From: a virus
Reading direction: 5' to 3' (one strand)
Virus record (IMG/VR): IMGVR_UViG_3300022744_000071
Location: 1-35,910 of that record
DNA: 35,910 bases
A program made the position numbers and the translations under genes. Within the stretch, counting starts at the first letter, position 1; the number at the start of each line of letters is the position of its first letter. The notes below the pieces were generated by a model. That model saw only the letters and a program-made list of their open reading frames with translations. It made no database searches and was not told the origin of the DNA. This document shows, piece by piece, positions 9,487 to 34,583 of this stretch.

Positions 9487-9681
9487 ATGTGGAATAGATT
9501 GGACAAGGTGACGCGGTTTGCGCTGGTGATCGGGCTTGCCCTGTGGCCGATTTTCTCAGCCCTGTTCGGGGTCCACAGCCCCGCTTGGGGAAGTGGGTTC
9601 TATGTGGACGTGATCGTTGTGGGTTTCTTCTGGGCTTTGGCCGAGGGGCTGAAGGCGGTATTTATTCCGCGCCGTTTTTAG
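9487..9681 (+). CDS. Lone plus-strand small membrane protein, 64 aa
   Basis: The gene runs opposite to the whole late operon and fills the gap between the tail fibre and the ejection lysozyme genes. GGAGG at 9477-9481 is 5 bases before the ATG, and codon use (CTG, GTG, GGG, TTC) matches expressed genes here. The protein has two hydrophobic spans (about residues 11-30 and 39-58) and ends FIPRRF. Its last 20 bases overlap the end of the convergent gene. It could be an independently expressed accessory gene (moron) or a holin-like protein. No promoter was identified. Confidence 0.6.
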   Translation: MWNRLDKVTRFALVIGLALWPIFSALFGVHSPAWGSGFYVDVIVVGFFWALAEGLKAVFIPRRF

Positions 9682-12010
9682 GCGGTTCCAGCAGGTAATT
9701 CCGCAGCTTCGCGGTCTTGTTGGACTTCACCGCGCCCTTGATAAAGGGCATGGCAAGCTCGGACATGCCCGCCGTCATGTGCGCTGCACCTGTCCTAAGC
9801 CCCGTCTCAACCGCACTCTTGGCGATTGACGCAAGGTTCTGCGCGGTGTTGGAGCCGCCCGGCATACCGCCCATCAGGCGGGTTGACCGTTGCAGGTCTT
9901 TGTCGATGTTCCACAGCGCCGTAAGCTGCTCGGGACTAAGTTTCGTTGCCGGAAGAATACCGCCCGCTTTGCGCTGTTCGTAGATGCTGCGCATGAAGTT
10001 GCGGAATTTCGCTGCCGACAAGACACCTTGGTTCATCAGGCTTGGTAGTTTGCTTTGCAGATACTCCATCGCGTCAATCGGGGCCTTCTGCGCCGCGTAT
10101 TGCTTCATCAACTCGCCAAATCCCGGCGTTGCGGCCTCAATCTGCGCATCCAGCGATGCCTTGACTTCCATCAAAGCATCGACAGCCTTGGCCGACATGG
10201 GGGCTTCCCGCAGGGCCTCCGGTGACGTGATGTCATTGATGTGCTGGCGCACGCCGTAAAGCATTTCCGGGTCGGTTTCGAGTTCACCCGTCTTGCGGTT
10301 TTTCAGGCTGGCCGAGACGCTTTCCATCGCCTTCTCAACCGCTGCCCGCTTGCCGTCCGGCCCATCAAGAATGCCGTTGATCGTGGCGACGACAGGCTCG
10401 GCGTCGGCGGGCTTTTTATCGGCAAAGACCGTCTTCAAGCCCTTGTCAAATTCGTCACTGAGCATGGCCGTCTTGGCCTGCACCGTCTCGGGGCTTCCCG
10501 CCATGTCGCCGAAGTAATTCAGCCGCGCCTCATTCTGGCCCGCCTGATGTTGGGTGACTTGGTGCGCGTATTCCGGGTCTGACGACATCGCCGCACGGTG
10601 CTGGATCGCGTCCGCCGTGTTGGTGGAATACTCGCCTTTGAGCGGCACAGAGCCGGGGACATAAACCTCCCCGCTCGGGTCCATCGTTTTGCCGCCTTCG
10701 GACAGCCGCTTGAGGTTGTCGCCAGCCTCCGCCGCCGCGAGTTCTGCGGGGGACATGGTGGCGAGTTCCTGCGGTGTCGCCGCCGCGCTCAGGTTCTGCG
10801 GCATACCCGCTGGCACCGGCGCGGGAAGCGCAGGGCGCGTCATGGCAGGCTCAACGCGCAGGGGTTCGGCCCGTGGCGGTATGGCAGGCTGGTCAGCCGC
10901 AACCGTCGCTCTAGGGACCGTCTCACGGGCTGCGGCGCGCAGGGGTTCGGCCCGTGGCGGTATGGCAGGCTGGTCAGCCGCAACCGTCGCTCTAGGGACC
11001 GTCTCACGGGCTGCGGCAAGCATGTTCAATTCCGGGATGGGCGGGGCTGTGACCATAGCCGCCATGTCCGCACCCAGCCGCCCGCTCGGGTCGATCAAAT
11101 TCCCGGCCTCGTAAAGCCCGCCTTCCACGCCGCCCGTCAGAGCGTTCAAGCCCCGGCCAGCCAAAGACAGCACCGGGCCGATGGTATGGTTGGCCACGGT
11201 ATCCAGCGCCTTGGAATATCCCGGCGCATCCGGCGAGGATTGCCAGTAGTTCGTGTCCAAGAGCGGGCCGCTGCCGAATCCCTCGGTCACGCCCGTCATG
11301 GCCCCATCGCCAATTTTGCCCGCGGCTTCACCAATGGCGAATGCCAATTTGTCTACCGGATCAACCTTCTTCGGCTTTGCCGTCGGGGCTTGGGATGCCA
11401 ACCAATCCAGATTGGCGTCGGGTGCGGCTTTGGTGTCCGGCGCGGCCTTCTCGGTCGGGGCCATCGTCTGCAACCAATCCAGATTGGCGTCAGGCGAGGT
11501 CGGGTCTGTCGGGGGCTTCTCGGCTTTGGGCGGTTCGGCGTAGAGTTGCGGCGCATCCGGCGCGGTCATGGCGGCATAAATGCGCTGCGCATTGGCCACC
11601 CGTGCGCCGTTGTTGGCCTCCGCCGCCCCGGGGCGTTCATAGGCTTGGGAGGCAATGACAGCGGCCTCGCCGGGGTCTTTGGCGTTCCAAAGCTTTGTCC
11701 AAGCGCCGCCTTCGCCCTTGTTGGCCTCGATCATGGTGTAATCGAGTTGGGTCGTCAGGTCGCCGGGGTCTTTGCCCTGCGATTTCGCATAGGCCAAGTA
11801 TCCCGCTTTCCGGTCGCCCAAGAACTGCGCAACGCCATAGGCCCCGCTGGACGGGTTCACAGCGCCGGGGTCGATGTCCCCCGTCTTGCGGTTGGTGCTC
11901 TCTTGCATGAGGCTTCCAACCATGCCTGCCGCGACCTGCGGCGGCACACCGGCCTTGACGTAATATTGGAACGCGTAAGCCGCGTTCGTCGGAACGTCAC
12001 TGCTGGCCAT
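9662..12010 (-). CDS. Internal virion/ejection protein with N-terminal tail-lysozyme domain (gp16-like position), 782 aa
   Basis: Residues about 8-150 match the phage tail lysozyme fold: AAYAFQYYVKAGVPPQVAAG, GSLMQES with the likely catalytic Glu, then GAYGVAQFLGDRKAGYLAYA. The middle (150-400) is Pro/Ala-rich low-complexity linker, and the C-terminal 350 residues are helical. In P22 the third ejection protein (gp16) enters the cell with DNA; here a peptidoglycan hydrolase could open the wall. An exact 81-bp tandem duplication lies in the linker. The start overlaps the previous gene by 14 bases. Confidence 0.75.
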   Translation of the reverse strand: MASSDVPTNAAYAFQYYVKAGVPPQVAAGMVGSLMQESTNRKTGDIDPGAVNPSSGAYGVAQFLGDRKAGYLAYAKSQGKDPGDLTTQLDYTMIEANKGEGGAWTKLWNAKDPGEAAVIASQAYERPGAAEANNGARVANAQRIYAAMTAPDAPQLYAEPPKAEKPPTDPTSPDANLDWLQTMAPTEKAAPDTKAAPDANLDWLASQAPTAKPKKVDPVDKLAFAIGEAAGKIGDGAMTGVTEGFGSGPLLDTNYWQSSPDAPGYSKALDTVANHTIGPVLSLAGRGLNALTGGVEGGLYEAGNLIDPSGRLGADMAAMVTAPPIPELNMLAAARETVPRATVAADQPAIPPRAEPLRAAARETVPRATVAADQPAIPPRAEPLRVEPAMTRPALPAPVPAGMPQNLSAAATPQELATMSPAELAAAEAGDNLKRLSEGGKTMDPSGEVYVPGSVPLKGEYSTNTADAIQHRAAMSSDPEYAHQVTQHQAGQNEARLNYFGDMAGSPETVQAKTAMLSDEFDKGLKTVFADKKPADAEPVVATINGILDGPDGKRAAVEKAMESVSASLKNRKTGELETDPEMLYGVRQHINDITSPEALREAPMSAKAVDALMEVKASLDAQIEAATPGFGELMKQYAAQKAPIDAMEYLQSKLPSLMNQGVLSAAKFRNFMRSIYEQRKAGGILPATKLSPEQLTALWNIDKDLQRSTRLMGGMPGGSNTAQNLASIAKSAVETGLRTGAAHMTAGMSELAMPFIKGAVKSNKTAKLRNYLLEPPKNGAE
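10855..11016 (-). repeat. Perfect 81-bp tandem duplication
   Basis: Bases 10855-10935 are repeated without change at 10936-11016. The unit codes 27 residues of the Pro/Ala-rich linker (containing ARETVPRATVAADQPAIPPR) and keeps the frame. Perfect identity points to a recent event or an assembly effect. Confidence 0.95.
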
Positions 12011-27660: not shown

Positions 27661-28193
27661 GCGGGAACCTCGCCATGTTCAAAACGTGCGCCCCGTGCAG
27701 CGTTGATTGCCTGCCAGCAGTTGGCATCATCGGCATTCCCATCGGGTTCTTCTGCTTCGGCATCTGTGATGCCCCAGAAAAGACGCGGAGACTTATCGTG
27801 AGGGTTTGGAGGCAAATATTTTGAGTTGAAGCATTCTGTCATCCAGAACGGTTCACCCCCATCCTCATGGGGCCACATCACAAGGTAATAACGATTGGTT
27901 GGTTGCCCCGCCGCCAGAAGCAACTTTCTGCCAGACTGTGAAACCAACGCTTTCCAGCGTTTCACGTGATCCGGCTCAATCACACCTTCCGGCTTCACCT
28001 CTGCCCACATGCCACCGCACAAATCAGGCAGATAGAAATCAGGCAAATACCAACCAGCATCGCCTAGGTCGAAACCTTCAGGCTCGTAATCCCAGCGCAA
28101 GCCAAGCGCTGAAAAGAAGACCGCCCACCTTGCTTCCGTGCGCGACCGAAAACGGTAGCCCTTCCAAACAGTCTCAATAGCCCTGATCGTCAT
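27657..28193 (-). CDS. PD-(D/E)XK-type endonuclease-like protein, 178 aa
   Basis: Residues 12-60 contain the nuclease core order: YRFRSRTEARWAVFFSALGL (Glu at the alpha helix), then WYLPDFYLPDL (Asp) and WAEVKPEG (E-x-K). This is the VRR/PD-(D/E)XK layout seen in phage proteins next to replication genes. AAGGAG lies 8 bases before the ATG, so it is translated independently. It probably cuts DNA in replication or recombination. Confidence 0.65.
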   Translation of the reverse strand: MTIRAIETVWKGYRFRSRTEARWAVFFSALGLRWDYEPEGFDLGDAGWYLPDFYLPDLCGGMWAEVKPEGVIEPDHVKRWKALVSQSGRKLLLAAGQPTNRYYLVMWPHEDGGEPFWMTECFNSKYLPPNPHDKSPRLFWGITDAEAEEPDGNADDANCWQAINAARGARFEHGEVPA

Positions 28194-28240
28194 GCCGGTC
28201 TCCTTGCGATTTTGATGGGGTTTCGGGGTGCCGCCGTAGG

Positions 28241-28545
28241 GGATTGCGCCACCTGCGCCACCTTTTCCCTACATCCCACAGGAATTTCGTAAGTGCTGCT
28301 GCGCCACCTGTAGTATTTCCTAACCAACTTTTAGACATAGTTGTTAATACATAAGCATTAACAACGACTTGCACTTTCAAATGAGTTATTGGGGCTGAGG
28401 TGGCGCAGGTGGCGCAATCAAGATGTGAAATTCGGCCATATGTCTGTTTTTCAAGGTTTTCTGCGCCACCTACCGTGAAGAGGTGGCGCACGACATGGCG
28501 CAAGGTGGCGCGCCAGTCCTGATGACTGATTTTCAAGGTGGCGCA
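28241..28545 (-). other. Iteron-rich putative replication origin
   Basis: Nine copies of AGGTGGCGCA or its complement TGCGCCACCT occur at 28245, 28254, 28300, 28398, 28407, 28462, 28481, 28503 (one mismatch) and 28536. They flank an AT-rich core (about 28310-28390) that holds a perfect inverted repeat GTTGTTAAT...ATTAACAAC (28340-28348, 28357-28365). An A+T-rich core between clustered iterons, next to the primase-helicase gene, is how iteron origins look. No coding frame here is convincing. Confidence 0.75.
28340..28365 (-). repeat. Inverted repeat in the AT-rich core of the origin
   Basis: Nine-base arms (28340-28348 and 28357-28365) surround an 8-nt loop. It lies between the two iteron groups and could be the unwinding element or a cruciform. 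Confidence 0.8.
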
Positions 28546-28556
28546 CTGGAAACAGA

Positions 28557-30947
28557 TCATTGCGCATTCCCTTCGGCCAAGATGTAACGCGCCAAGCTGC
28601 GGTTAGGGCCTTCGGTAAAGCGACCCGCCTTGACCCACCCGGCGCGCGTGATGATGCCCGCAATCCGCATGGTGTCGCTCTTGGTCCATCGTTCGCGCGG
28701 GATATCCAGGTACTGGAAAATGTCGCGGGTGGTTGTCTCCGTCTTGCCCGATACGGCGGCAAGCACATCAGCCGTCCAAGGGTCGTCTGGCGAGCGGGTT
28801 GCCGTGATCTGTGAGGCTTGGTTTTCGCCTTCCCGATCCAGCCACCAAACCTCGCCCGAATTGAACGCTACAACGGCTTCGGCCCAAAGCTGATCCCGGT
28901 CGCGGCGTATGCCGTCAGCATCAATCGCGGTGCAGCGCACGGGCCAGAACCGCCGCCCGCCTGTGTCATCCGTCAGATAGTCGAATGTGTTTGTCGTGCC
29001 CGCAAAGACGCAGCGCCGTGGCTCTGTCACGTCTAGGCGCGCGTAAGCTGGTCGATACCGTTCCTCCACCCGCGACAAGAAAGCCTTGACCGCCTCGTTG
29101 TCGGAGCGCCGCATGGCGGACAATTCTGGCAGCTCCACAATCCACTTACCGCGAAGGCCGGATGAAGCATCCTTATTATGCAAGTCACGAAGGCCGTCAA
29201 AGAACCACGCATCGGACGCCAGCGCGCGCAGCATGGTTGATTTGCCAATCCCCTGCCCGCCTTCCAGCATCAGCACGTTGTCAGCCTTGCAGCCGGGGAG
29301 CAGAGCGCGTGCTACAGCGGCGATAAGCCACGCCCGCCCCATCCGGTGTGTTATGCCATTCCCCGCGTCTACAGCCCCGCAATAGACAGCCAGCCATGTA
29401 TTCAGCCGAGGTTGGCCATCCCATGACAAACTGCGCAGGTAGTCTGCCACGGGAGATATGATCTTCTCGCGCGCCACCGCGTCGATCACATCGGACAAGC
29501 CGCTGCGTGGGGTGTCTGGAAAGCCATGCGAGTTGAACCAGCGTAGGGCCTCGGTGATGTTCTTCTCTGTGATGGCGTGCGGTTTGAATGATGCCTTCGG
29601 GGCCCGTGACCCTGGCACCGGGCGAAGCAACATCACACTGTTGGCGAATTCATCAAAGGCAAATATGCCCTTCCACGCCATGTGATTGTATAGGATCAAG
29701 TCACCGTTTTGCGGGCACCATACCGGCCTGCCGCGCGCATTCTTCACTAGATCGGCTTCCCAATCGGCTGATGGCTCTGGTTCTGATATGCTTGTTTCAG
29801 GTTCCTGCTTTGGTTTCACAACGTCAAAGTCTGACAGATCATCAGCGCGCAGCCTGTCAAAGGTCTGCCGTGCATCACGTTCCGCATACAGGTTGATTTC
29901 CTTCGCATATGCGATGGCTGCTTTTGACGGGTCGCCGCCATGTTCAAAGTGCGCAAACAGGTCAAAGGCGTCCCCGAAGGAGTGCCCATTCTTGCTTTGT
30001 GCGCCGATCTTGGCGGACAGGTCGCTATCAGAAAGGCTGATCCAATAGTCGCCATAGTTCCGCGTGGCGAAGGAACCAGATGACTGATATGGCGAGCGCC
30101 AGTCATTTGACTGACCATCTTGTGTGTAGCCATACTTTGCCAGCAAGTCGGCAACGCTGTGCCGCACATTGAAGATTTGACCGGGGCTTTCCGTTTCATC
30201 TATCTTGTTTGCCGCCCGGTCTGCCGCCTTGCGCGCACGCGCGGCTGCTGCTTCATCCTCTGCCGCCTTCCGCTTAGTGCGGTTGAGGTTGAAACGTTCA
30301 AGTATCTTGCTGCCTGTCAAAATCAGGCGGCTTCCCCGCACAATGTCGTATTCGTAAAAGTCACCACGGTTGGGCAAGAAGAAAAGCTGACCCGGCCTTG
30401 CGAGGGCGCGATCGGGTATAATTGCCCCTTGGCTAGCATCCTCGATCAGGTCAAAGAAAGCGTTTGAAGTTTCCGCATAGTCAGCCCCCGCGATGGGGGC
30501 CGCCAAAGGTATGACGGCCCGCCATTTCATATTCTCTGGGGTTGCCGACTTGGTGCTGTAGATCAGCAGTGATCCATCGCCGCACACGGCTTTTACCGCG
30601 GATTTCACCTCATGGATTGATGGATTGTTCTTGTCTATGTCCAAAGTCAGGACATGGAACCGCCCGTTCTGGCGTTGCGCGTCATGGTCACGCGCATCAT
30701 GTTCCATGTAATCGCTGCCAATGATCCATTGCGCCCGCGACTTTTCCACGCTTGGCGGGTTCTTGATCATTGCTGTAATTTCAACGCCAGTTATACCAAC
30801 ATATGGCTTTCCGGCGTCTGACGACCCATTTCTGCGGCCATCATTCAAGACAAGCGCATGGGTGTCCGACTGGCCCCAGCCGGTGACCAGTGAAAGCGCC
30901 GTTTTCGTTTCCTGCCGTATATTCATAGGCGCTTTCACCAATATCAT
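28557..30947 (-). CDS. VapE-type primase-helicase, 796 aa
   Basis: The N-terminal part looks like an archaeo-eukaryotic-type primase: LTLDIDKNN with DxD near 103-105, then WRAVIPLAAP and RPGQLFFLPN. The C-terminal half is a superfamily 3-like helicase of the virulence-associated E family with Walker A GGQGIGKST (563-571), a Walker B-like ELPELS (605-610) and a sensor-like CVFAGTTNT (about 646-654). It would open the origin and prime replication, with host polymerase doing synthesis. The start (30947, or an ATG 21 bases later) is uncertain, as neither has a good Shine-Dalgarno sequence. Confidence 0.85.
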   Translation of the reverse strand: MILVKAPMNIRQETKTALSLVTGWGQSDTHALVLNDGRRNGSSDAGKPYVGITGVEITAMIKNPPSVEKSRAQWIIGSDYMEHDARDHDAQRQNGRFHVLTLDIDKNNPSIHEVKSAVKAVCGDGSLLIYSTKSATPENMKWRAVIPLAAPIAGADYAETSNAFFDLIEDASQGAIIPDRALARPGQLFFLPNRGDFYEYDIVRGSRLILTGSKILERFNLNRTKRKAAEDEAAAARARKAADRAANKIDETESPGQIFNVRHSVADLLAKYGYTQDGQSNDWRSPYQSSGSFATRNYGDYWISLSDSDLSAKIGAQSKNGHSFGDAFDLFAHFEHGGDPSKAAIAYAKEINLYAERDARQTFDRLRADDLSDFDVVKPKQEPETSISEPEPSADWEADLVKNARGRPVWCPQNGDLILYNHMAWKGIFAFDEFANSVMLLRPVPGSRAPKASFKPHAITEKNITEALRWFNSHGFPDTPRSGLSDVIDAVAREKIISPVADYLRSLSWDGQPRLNTWLAVYCGAVDAGNGITHRMGRAWLIAAVARALLPGCKADNVLMLEGGQGIGKSTMLRALASDAWFFDGLRDLHNKDASSGLRGKWIVELPELSAMRRSDNEAVKAFLSRVEERYRPAYARLDVTEPRRCVFAGTTNTFDYLTDDTGGRRFWPVRCTAIDADGIRRDRDQLWAEAVVAFNSGEVWWLDREGENQASQITATRSPDDPWTADVLAAVSGKTETTTRDIFQYLDIPRERWTKSDTMRIAGIITRAGWVKAGRFTEGPNRSLARYILAEGNAQ

Positions 30948-32879: not shown

Positions 32880-33190
32880 GCTGACCTCCGCGAATACCAA
32901 AAAGTTTGCGTCGGTCCCTCGATTGCGAAGCTATCTTGGCACAGGTCGGCTCGCATCTTTTCCGCAAGCCGTTCGCACTGATCCCAAATTTCCTGCGGCT
33001 CTTTTGGAAAGCGCGGGTAATTAATTCGCGTAACGACAACCCCAGCTTCCGCACCGCCCGTGTAAATGTAGTCAGCAGGAGAGACAGCGAAACACGCCCC
33101 CTCTTCGCAAAATTCGCGCACTGAGCGGCAGGCATCCCGATAATCGCCAGCAATCCAAATCCGGCAGGTGAACGACGACGCGGCAATCAT
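32876..33190 (-). CDS. Hypothetical 104-aa phage protein
   Basis: I start at ATG 33190, which overlaps the PP-loop gene stop (ATGA); a start 9 bases upstream is less likely. The protein has FTCRIWIAGDYRDACRSVRE, then CFAVSPADYIYTGGAEAGVV and INYPRFP. This is a small alpha/beta protein seen in other phages, as I recall, without known function. Confidence 0.65.
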   Translation of the reverse strand: MIAASSFTCRIWIAGDYRDACRSVREFCEEGACFAVSPADYIYTGGAEAGVVVTRINYPRFPKEPQEIWDQCERLAEKMRADLCQDSFAIEGPTQTFWYSRRSA

Positions 33191-34047
33191 ATGACGCACT
33201 CCCCATCATCACGCTGGCAAAGGGCGTCCTCGGCGTCGAAGAGCCAGTCGCCTTGGCGCTGAACGAAGCTGCGGAGCTGAGCCCAGCCGCCGCGCTTGTC
33301 AAAAAGAGATGCATCGGTCGGCCTGCCCTTTTGGGTTTCCAGTGCGCCGATGCGTGCCTCAGCCGCCTCCCACCATGCCGCCCGCTCGGGGTAGTCCCGG
33401 ATCAGCGCGGCCCGCGACTTTTCGCTCTTGAGGAAGCAGCCATCGCAGTTTCCATTGGGCGTCACGCCGTTGATGTTTTGCAGACACAGGTCAAAGGGCT
33501 GCCGCGCCCAAAACGCCATGACGTCGCGCTTCGAAACGCCCGCATCCGCCAAAGGGTGCCAGCGCGTCCAGCGCTCTTTGTTACGCTTGAACGAGTCCGG
33601 CAGTCTGTGCGCTTCATCGGCGCGGATGCCAATCGCCGACGTCCAATGCTTCCAGCCTGCCGCGACCAGATAACGCTTCGCCGGAAGGATTTTCAGGTCC
33701 TGGGTGCAAAAGCGCTGCGTGACATTGGGCAGGTATTGCTTGGCATCAATCAGCGCGTCGAAGGGCTCGCCGTTCATGCTAGCACCTTGGCGCCCGATGA
33801 CTTCAAAGCCAGGAACGCCGCGCCGATACTCCACCCAAGTGATGGACACGCCCCACCGCTGGCCGACCTCGGCCACGAAATCCAGCGTCTCTGGAAACTC
33901 GCGCCCGGTGTTTGTGAAGACCACCTCGACGCGATCTTCCGGCAATCCGCCATTAGCCTCCATGATCTGATGCAGCATGTAAGCCGAGGTGCGCCCCCCG
34001 CTAAAACTGATCTGCACAAGACCTTCCGGGAGTGTGAAATGGCTCAT
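33187..34047 (-). CDS. PP-loop (PAPS reductase-like) family protein, 286 aa
   Basis: I start at ATG 34047, in ATGA overlap with the methyltransferase stop. The PP-loop SGGRTS lies at residues 16-21. RFCTQDLKI (Cys 114) and NGNCDGCFLK (Cys 201 and 204) are the cysteine motifs usual in phage PAPS reductase-like proteins and in DndC-type enzymes. The family activates substrates with ATP, in some members for sulfur transfer. Substrate and role here are unknown; next to a DNA methyltransferase, DNA modification is one option. Confidence 0.7.
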   Translation of the reverse strand: MSHFTLPEGLVQISFSGGRTSAYMLHQIMEANGGLPEDRVEVVFTNTGREFPETLDFVAEVGQRWGVSITWVEYRRGVPGFEVIGRQGASMNGEPFDALIDAKQYLPNVTQRFCTQDLKILPAKRYLVAAGWKHWTSAIGIRADEAHRLPDSFKRNKERWTRWHPLADAGVSKRDVMAFWARQPFDLCLQNINGVTPNGNCDGCFLKSEKSRAALIRDYPERAAWWEAAEARIGALETQKGRPTDASLFDKRGGWAQLRSFVQRQGDWLFDAEDALCQRDDGECVI

Positions 34048-34583
34048 GCTGCCCTCATCAAGTAGGCCACAAGCCAGACGCGCTCTCTGCGATGGGGAGC
34101 GCCCAAGGCTGACGCCGGAATGTTTTCCCACTCAGCATCATACCCGCACTCGGCCAAGTCTCCGAGAACTCGGCCAAACCATCCGCCACGCCGTTCGCTT
34201 GGGCCAGAAAGCAACGCTGCGACGTTCTCCACGATGACGAAATCGGGTCGTAAATCGCCAACAAGTCGGACGATTTCGGACCAAAGTCCGCTGCGGGTGC
34301 CTTCGCCCATGCCGCGCTGTTTTCCGGCAACGCTAAGGTCTTGGCACGGGAAACCGCCTGTGATGACGTTGATTCCGGTAATTCCATCGGCAGCAAGTCT
34401 TGCCCCGGTAAGGGTGCGTACATCGTCATATTGGGGAACCTCTGGCCAGTGCTTCGCCAATACACGGCGCGGGAACGGCTCAATCTCGCAGAAGGCTACG
34501 GTTTCAAAGCCGCCTGTCCGTTCAAGCCCAAGGCTGAAACCGCCGATCCCGCTGAAAAGGTCGAGAACGCGCAACTTGCTCAT
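34044..34583 (-). CDS. C5 cytosine DNA methyltransferase, C-terminally short (179 aa)
   Basis: Motif I DLFSGIGG lies at residues 8-15, the catalytic Cys at 80 in GGFPCQDLS, ENV at 119-121 and HRRERVW (motif VIII) at 164-170. The protein ends 9 residues after motif VIII, so the target-recognition domain and motifs IX and X are absent. The next gene starts by ATGA, so the short form is the gene's real end and not a recent frameshift. Activity without a TRD would need a partner or a different recognition mode. Confidence 0.85.
   Translation of the reverse strand: MSKLRVLDLFSGIGGFSLGLERTGGFETVAFCEIEPFPRRVLAKHWPEVPQYDDVRTLTGARLAADGITGINVITGGFPCQDLSVAGKQRGMGEGTRSGLWSEIVRLVGDLRPDFVIVENVAALLSGPSERRGGWFGRVLGDLAECGYDAEWENIPASALGAPHRRERVWLVAYLMRAA

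Follow-up and report, generated by a model that had tools for sequence, protein, structure and literature searches.

SaPI origins reportedly contain an AT-rich region flanked by repeats. In satellite phage P4, the alpha protein is a primase-SF3 helicase fusion that acts with short iterons and also needs a second, distant region, crr. Lactobacillus phage A2 (NC_004112) has an annotated rep_origin with ACGGGAGGA iterons directly 3' of its D5-type primase gene. PriRep1 (7pds), solved with dsDNA, is the nearest solved relative of the VapE part of the protein described below. The C-terminal domain of the SaPI Rep helicase is reported to read a downstream iteron origin, and the C-terminal domain of Cch2 to bind repeats downstream of its gene (PMC7581432). 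The window analysed here, 35,910 nt from an uncultivated phage, comprises an entire IMG/VR record. We propose with good confidence that a cluster of short repeats at 28242-28545 is the replication origin of this phage and is recognised by the phage's own VapE-type primase-helicase.

The 10-mer AGGTGGCGCA occurred in eight exact copies, four on each strand and all within 28245-28545; a scan of the entire 35,910-nt record found no exact copy outside this interval, and the reversed pattern, scanned as a control, gave no match. The nine iterons span 301 bp. They comprise a left tandem pair with 9-bp spacing on the minus strand (28245-28254 and 28254-28263), a single minus-strand copy at 28300-28309, a right tandem pair with the same spacing on the plus strand (28398-28407 and 28407-28416), an inverted pair at 28462-28490 (28462-28471 on the minus and 28481-28490 on the plus strand), a ninth plus-strand copy with one mismatch, AGGTGGCGCG, at 28503-28512, and a plus-strand copy at 28536-28545 that lies closest to the VapE stop codon. 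The two tandem pairs belong to a perfect 22-bp inverted repeat (28242-28263/28398-28419). The densest 9-mer cluster per 305 bp had nine copies at the array, compared with two to four in 200 dinucleotide shuffles of the whole record. Predicted single-strand folding of the region was strong (z -6.4) because of the inverted repeats. An earlier note, made from the letters of this DNA, had counted eight perfect and one near-perfect copies in both orientations within 305 bp and expected the 10-mer to be concentrated there; the count and the confinement were both reproduced. The same note had the tandem pairs at 28245/28254 and 28398/28407 facing each other around a core. The pairs do lie around the core, but they are divergent, each oriented away from it.

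The core between the tandem pairs, a proposed unwinding region (28310-28397), is 66% AT over 88 nt and 71% AT over the 75 nt from 28316, in a record of 39.6% AT overall. Only 8e-5 of all 75-nt windows in the record reached this level, making the core the most AT-rich stretch of the genome. A 9-bp-arm inverted repeat, GTTGTTAAT-8 nt-ATTAACAAC, occupies 28340-28365 (arms 28340-28348 and 28357-28365), so that the flanked AT-rich core with its inverted repeat is present as the earlier note had described it. SaPI origins, too, reportedly have repeats flanking an AT-rich region. GC skew along the record was weak and without a clear signal, and is uninformative for or against an origin. The DnaA box TTATCCACA was found within one mismatch only at 686 and 26404, which is not above chance, and not beside the iterons.

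The array adjoins a gene for a 796-aa VapE-type primase-helicase, the proposed initiator (28557-30947, minus strand; PF05272, 5.9e-76). Its stop codon occupies 28557-28559 and the last iteron ends at 28545, placing the array 11 nt 3' of the gene. The VapE part is homologous to PriRep1 (profile E 8.8e-92, Foldseek 4.8e-27). The C-terminal 114 aa (28560-28901, minus strand), the proposed iteron-reading domain, were predicted by AlphaFold2 to form a winged helix with a pLDDT of about 94 over its core; Foldseek matches of this domain were weak (best E 0.028) and mostly to winged-helix DNA-binding proteins. The model of the full-length protein was poor at residues 1-387 (pLDDT under 50), and we conclude nothing from it on the primase part. 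Upstream of VapE, on the same strand, are genes for a Gp2.5-like ssDNA-binding protein and a RuvC-like resolvase, and on the other side of the array is a nuclease-like gene (PHROG Holliday junction resolvase, 2.8e-8). Further on are genes for the small and large terminase, portal, major head, head closure and DNA ejection proteins. The adjacency to a primase-helicase, and the lack of a DNA polymerase in the subset of open reading frames scanned with Pfam and PHROGs, agree with the earlier reading.

Several other features of the record were observed. Genes at 33187-34583, next to the replication module, encode a PAPS reductase-like protein and a C5 cytosine methyltransferase; in Roseobacter phage CRP-821, too, cytosine methyltransferases and a gene of the PAPS reductase family are found close to the helicase. 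The frame 9662-12010, with product matches to tape measure and tail families, contains a perfect 81-nt tandem duplication at 10855-11017. An identical 27-nt tandem array, encoding a YQGAASATG-like 9-aa repeat, is found at both contig ends (2-149 and 35746-35900), and the right-end reading frame appears to run on into the left end. Probably the record represents a genome that is circular or has overlapping termini and that was cut within a single repeat gene.

Clusters at the same position recur in relatives. A single VapE protein as query found no relative loci, and an alignment query was used instead. Of 78 VapE loci on viral contigs, 23 carried a cluster of four or more perfect 8-mers, in both orientations, in the 350 nt 3' of VapE; no locus reached four on the 5' side. 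A stricter count on non-redundant loci (at least six 7-mers, 2.6 kb) scored 19 of 37 downstream regions, 0 of 35 upstream regions and 0 of 37 shuffled ones. Two of the 37 gene bodies (L291 and L305) scored as well, with the cluster inside the called frame, possibly reflecting frameshifted stops. About half of the VapE loci are without a cluster by this criterion, and some clusters lie 0.3-2.3 kb away. A first tally had suggested one C-terminal subtype without iterons; this was misleading, as the clusters of this subtype are in many cases about 280-400 nt farther downstream. Among named helicase phages, phiBT1, P2559Y and RHph_X2_26 had no cluster at the expected place, and none was obvious in EMB1.

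The word itself varies between phages, often around a GTGG..CA-like core. At the same position phi105 has AGTAACAAA, the VapE phage PS3 of Marinobacter GGGGTGACC, and the Roseobacter phages TTGTATAAA (CRP-821, CRP-822 and CRP-831) or AACTACAAA (CRP-811 and CRP-823). Frequent kinds in the VapE survey were GTGGGACA, GTTGGGAC, TTGGTGACA and CTGGGTACA; the window's GTGGCGCA is GTGGGACA with two positions changed.

Viral contigs were then scanned for the window's word in inverted or out-of-frame spacing, the only patterns that are informative; with a 19-mer tandem pattern, most of the matches listed had the look of coding repeats, in phase and in one orientation. In phages that share the word, five to nine copies in both orientations lie 1-41 nt 3' of a replicative helicase gene. 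The helicase is of the D5_N type with or without a DnaG zinc ribbon (L012, L122), or an AAA_25 helicase alone or with a DnaG zinc ribbon (L123, L125, L128, L133, L151, L153); L126 and L141 are like L122 in context or sequence. Three helicase types (VapE, D5 and AAA_25) have this nine-letter word beside them, and their C-terminal domains had no mutual similarity by BLAST. The finding is conditional on a search by word in a very large collection, and the shared word is in itself no proof of common descent. An AT-rich core is missing from several of the GGTGGCGCA clusters at AAA_25 helicases. In blastn of the array region against phages and plasmids, matches were mostly coding or due to chance, save for a Rhodoplanes serenus phage-plasmid with six GGTGACGCA and one GGTGGCGCA behind an AAA_25 helicase, at the same position.

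One-orientation tandem clusters in bacterial contigs (L168/L171, L221, L265 and L156) were set aside as other features. In the Rhizobiales/Devosia contigs L168 (3311-3363) and L171 (2165-2217), an integrase-like gene is preceded at 16-17 nt by five GGTGGCGCA copies, all in one orientation; here a similar word is put to another use. A short palindrome, CCCTTTAGGG or CCCTAAAGGG, is found repeatedly among the iterons in AAA_25 helicase phages whose words differ (L125, L144, L275, L282 and L285). A literature match for the word proved to be a tRNA-Arg attachment site in Latilactobacillus prophages and is unrelated.

The CRP phages offer a closer view of helicase and word together. Their proteins match the window protein in its N-terminal part, at about 40% identity, and carry an AAA_25 helicase in place of VapE. 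The helicases of CRP-823 and CRP-821 are 97.3% identical over residues 1-375, 98.5% over 376-640 and 67.6% over the C-terminal 105, and their words differ; for CRP-823 and CRP-811 the same three segments are 83.5%, 98.9% and 98.1% identical, and the words agree. The exchanged DNA block begins about 350 nt ahead of the helicase stop and ends 175 nt past it; on either side of the block, identity is 85-99%, as far as about 700 nt past the stop. Among CRP-811, CRP-821, CRP-823 and CRP-831, the C-terminal ~105 aa and the iterons have been swapped as one cassette. Across 27 VapE loci, a partial Mantel test gave a partial r of 0.28 for word with C-terminus given the core (permutation p 0.0005) and -0.13 for word with core given the C-terminus (p 0.96); core and C-terminal identity are themselves strongly correlated (0.94). 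Since C-terminus and iterons adjoin in the DNA, co-inheritance could mimic co-evolution, and linkage is still a partial explanation of this covariation.

Several explanations other than an origin were weighed. A 128-aa open frame on the minus strand (28174-28560) spans the array and overlaps the VapE stop by ATGA, as would be seen if the array lay in an internally repetitive protein-coding gene. The repeats occur in both orientations and out of phase, and the codon score per codon of this frame was -0.21, compared with +0.13 to +0.51 for 14 genes of the phage. We found no family match in Pfam or PHROGs and no tblastn match among 50,697 phage records. The frame is non-coding, and the lack of coding signal already contradicts a repeat-bearing gene, whose probability we regard as negligible; the earlier note had held that conserved coding here would count against its origin reading. 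Inverted and tandem sites at a gene junction could also serve a transcription regulator as operators, through which it would control the genes downstream of VapE, but no promoter-like or terminator-like site was found at the array, and in phages whose downstream genes differ the cluster still lies behind the helicase. An operator would not usually have nine sites spread over 300 bp about an AT-rich core, and this function seems very unlikely. That the cluster lies between helicase and terminase genes in several same-word phages would suit a pac or cos site for packaging, to which the small terminase would bind. The small terminase gene of the window is, however, about 4.6 kb from the array with several genes between, and the CRP phages and A2 have no terminase gene near the cluster, making a packaging site highly improbable. 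An origin is supported because the word is confined to the array and far beyond chance, with an AT-rich core, and because clusters recur 3' of the helicase in relatives and not upstream; together with the annotated rep_origin of A2 and the reports on SaPI Rep, this upholds the iteron-type origin downstream of VapE that the earlier note had put forward.

A further question is which protein reads the iterons. A separate phage HTH protein or a host factor could bind them and recruit VapE: HTH-like proteins are encoded nearby, and one common factor would simply explain the same word beside three helicase types with dissimilar C-termini. Against such a factor, the word tracks the helicase C-terminus in the CRP phages and across the VapE loci, and words differ among phages of the same host genus, which is unexpected for a host factor; the multi-helicase observation, too, is conditional on how it was searched for. 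We consider a separate reader unlikely. Indirect signs that the C-terminal domain of VapE would be the reader are the CRP exchange, in which the word follows the C-terminal 105 aa and not the rest of the protein, the partial Mantel test and the winged-helix prediction. The array is most likely an iteron-type replication origin read by VapE itself.

From the homology to PriRep1 and the mode of SaPI Rep, we infer that VapE would bind the iterons, load as two rings and unwind the core. The C-terminal winged helix would bind the iterons, and VapE subunits would assemble as hexamers on two sides of the AT-rich core. The core would melt and the two helicases would then unwind outwards, while the N-terminal primase part, together with a host polymerase, would begin synthesis. 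Two rings loaded in opposite directions would suit the divergence of the outer tandem pairs.

A broader proposal, which we hold tentatively and with the balance somewhat against it, is that C-terminal winged helix and iterons form an exchangeable specificity cassette that recombines between phages behind the unrelated engines VapE, D5 and AAA_25, so that origin recognition would evolve separately from the motor. If this is true, the GTGG..CA-like core of many words would be one common reading mode. In the openly licensed papers searched we found no prior description of cassette exchange or of the same word behind unrelated helicase engines, which may exist elsewhere, and no paper in which this word is named as an origin in phages; the paper on the CRP phages (PMC12629253) gave no match for 'primase' or 'repeats'. 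The analysis gives an uncultivated phage a testable candidate origin. It also suggests a simple rule by which origins could be located in many phage genomes, namely to inspect the region just 3' of a VapE, D5 or AAA_25 helicase gene. The roseophage exchange provides ready-made pairs for testing helicase-origin recognition and its change, and may bear on incompatibility between co-infecting phages and satellites.

Comparison with known systems suggests an iteron origin of a known kind, in which the cassette exchange and the word shared behind unrelated helicases are the parts without a known description. A DnaA-dependent iteron plasmid origin would have TTATCCACA boxes beside its iterons, which are absent here. 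A phage satellite of the SaPI or P4 kind would be without packaging and head genes, and the record has terminase subunits, portal and major head protein. Like P4 with alpha, ori and crr, the window combines a primase-SF3 helicase fusion with short iterons; unlike P4, it has one cluster of the word and no second distant region, as judged by exact copies outside 28245-28545. With the A2 origin it shares iterons in both orientations, an AT-rich core and a position directly 3' of the primase-helicase gene, whereas A2 has a D5-type helicase and another word, ACGGGAGGA. In Cch2 of SCCmec, too, the helicase C-terminal domain binds short repeats 3' of the gene, as proposed for the window; Cch2 belongs to the D5 family, with three 5-nt AAGTG repeats in a chromosomal cassette (PMC7581432). 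The SaPI Rep/PriRep origins have a homologous self-loading SF3 helicase and multiple short repeats directly 3' of its gene (here nine copies in 301 bp). They differ in that the window is an autonomous phage that encodes terminase, portal and head proteins itself, has another word, and fuses primase part and helicase in one protein. The C-terminal domain of SaPI Rep is reported to be the reader, as is proposed here for VapE, and the mode proposed for VapE is the one described for these self-loading helicases.
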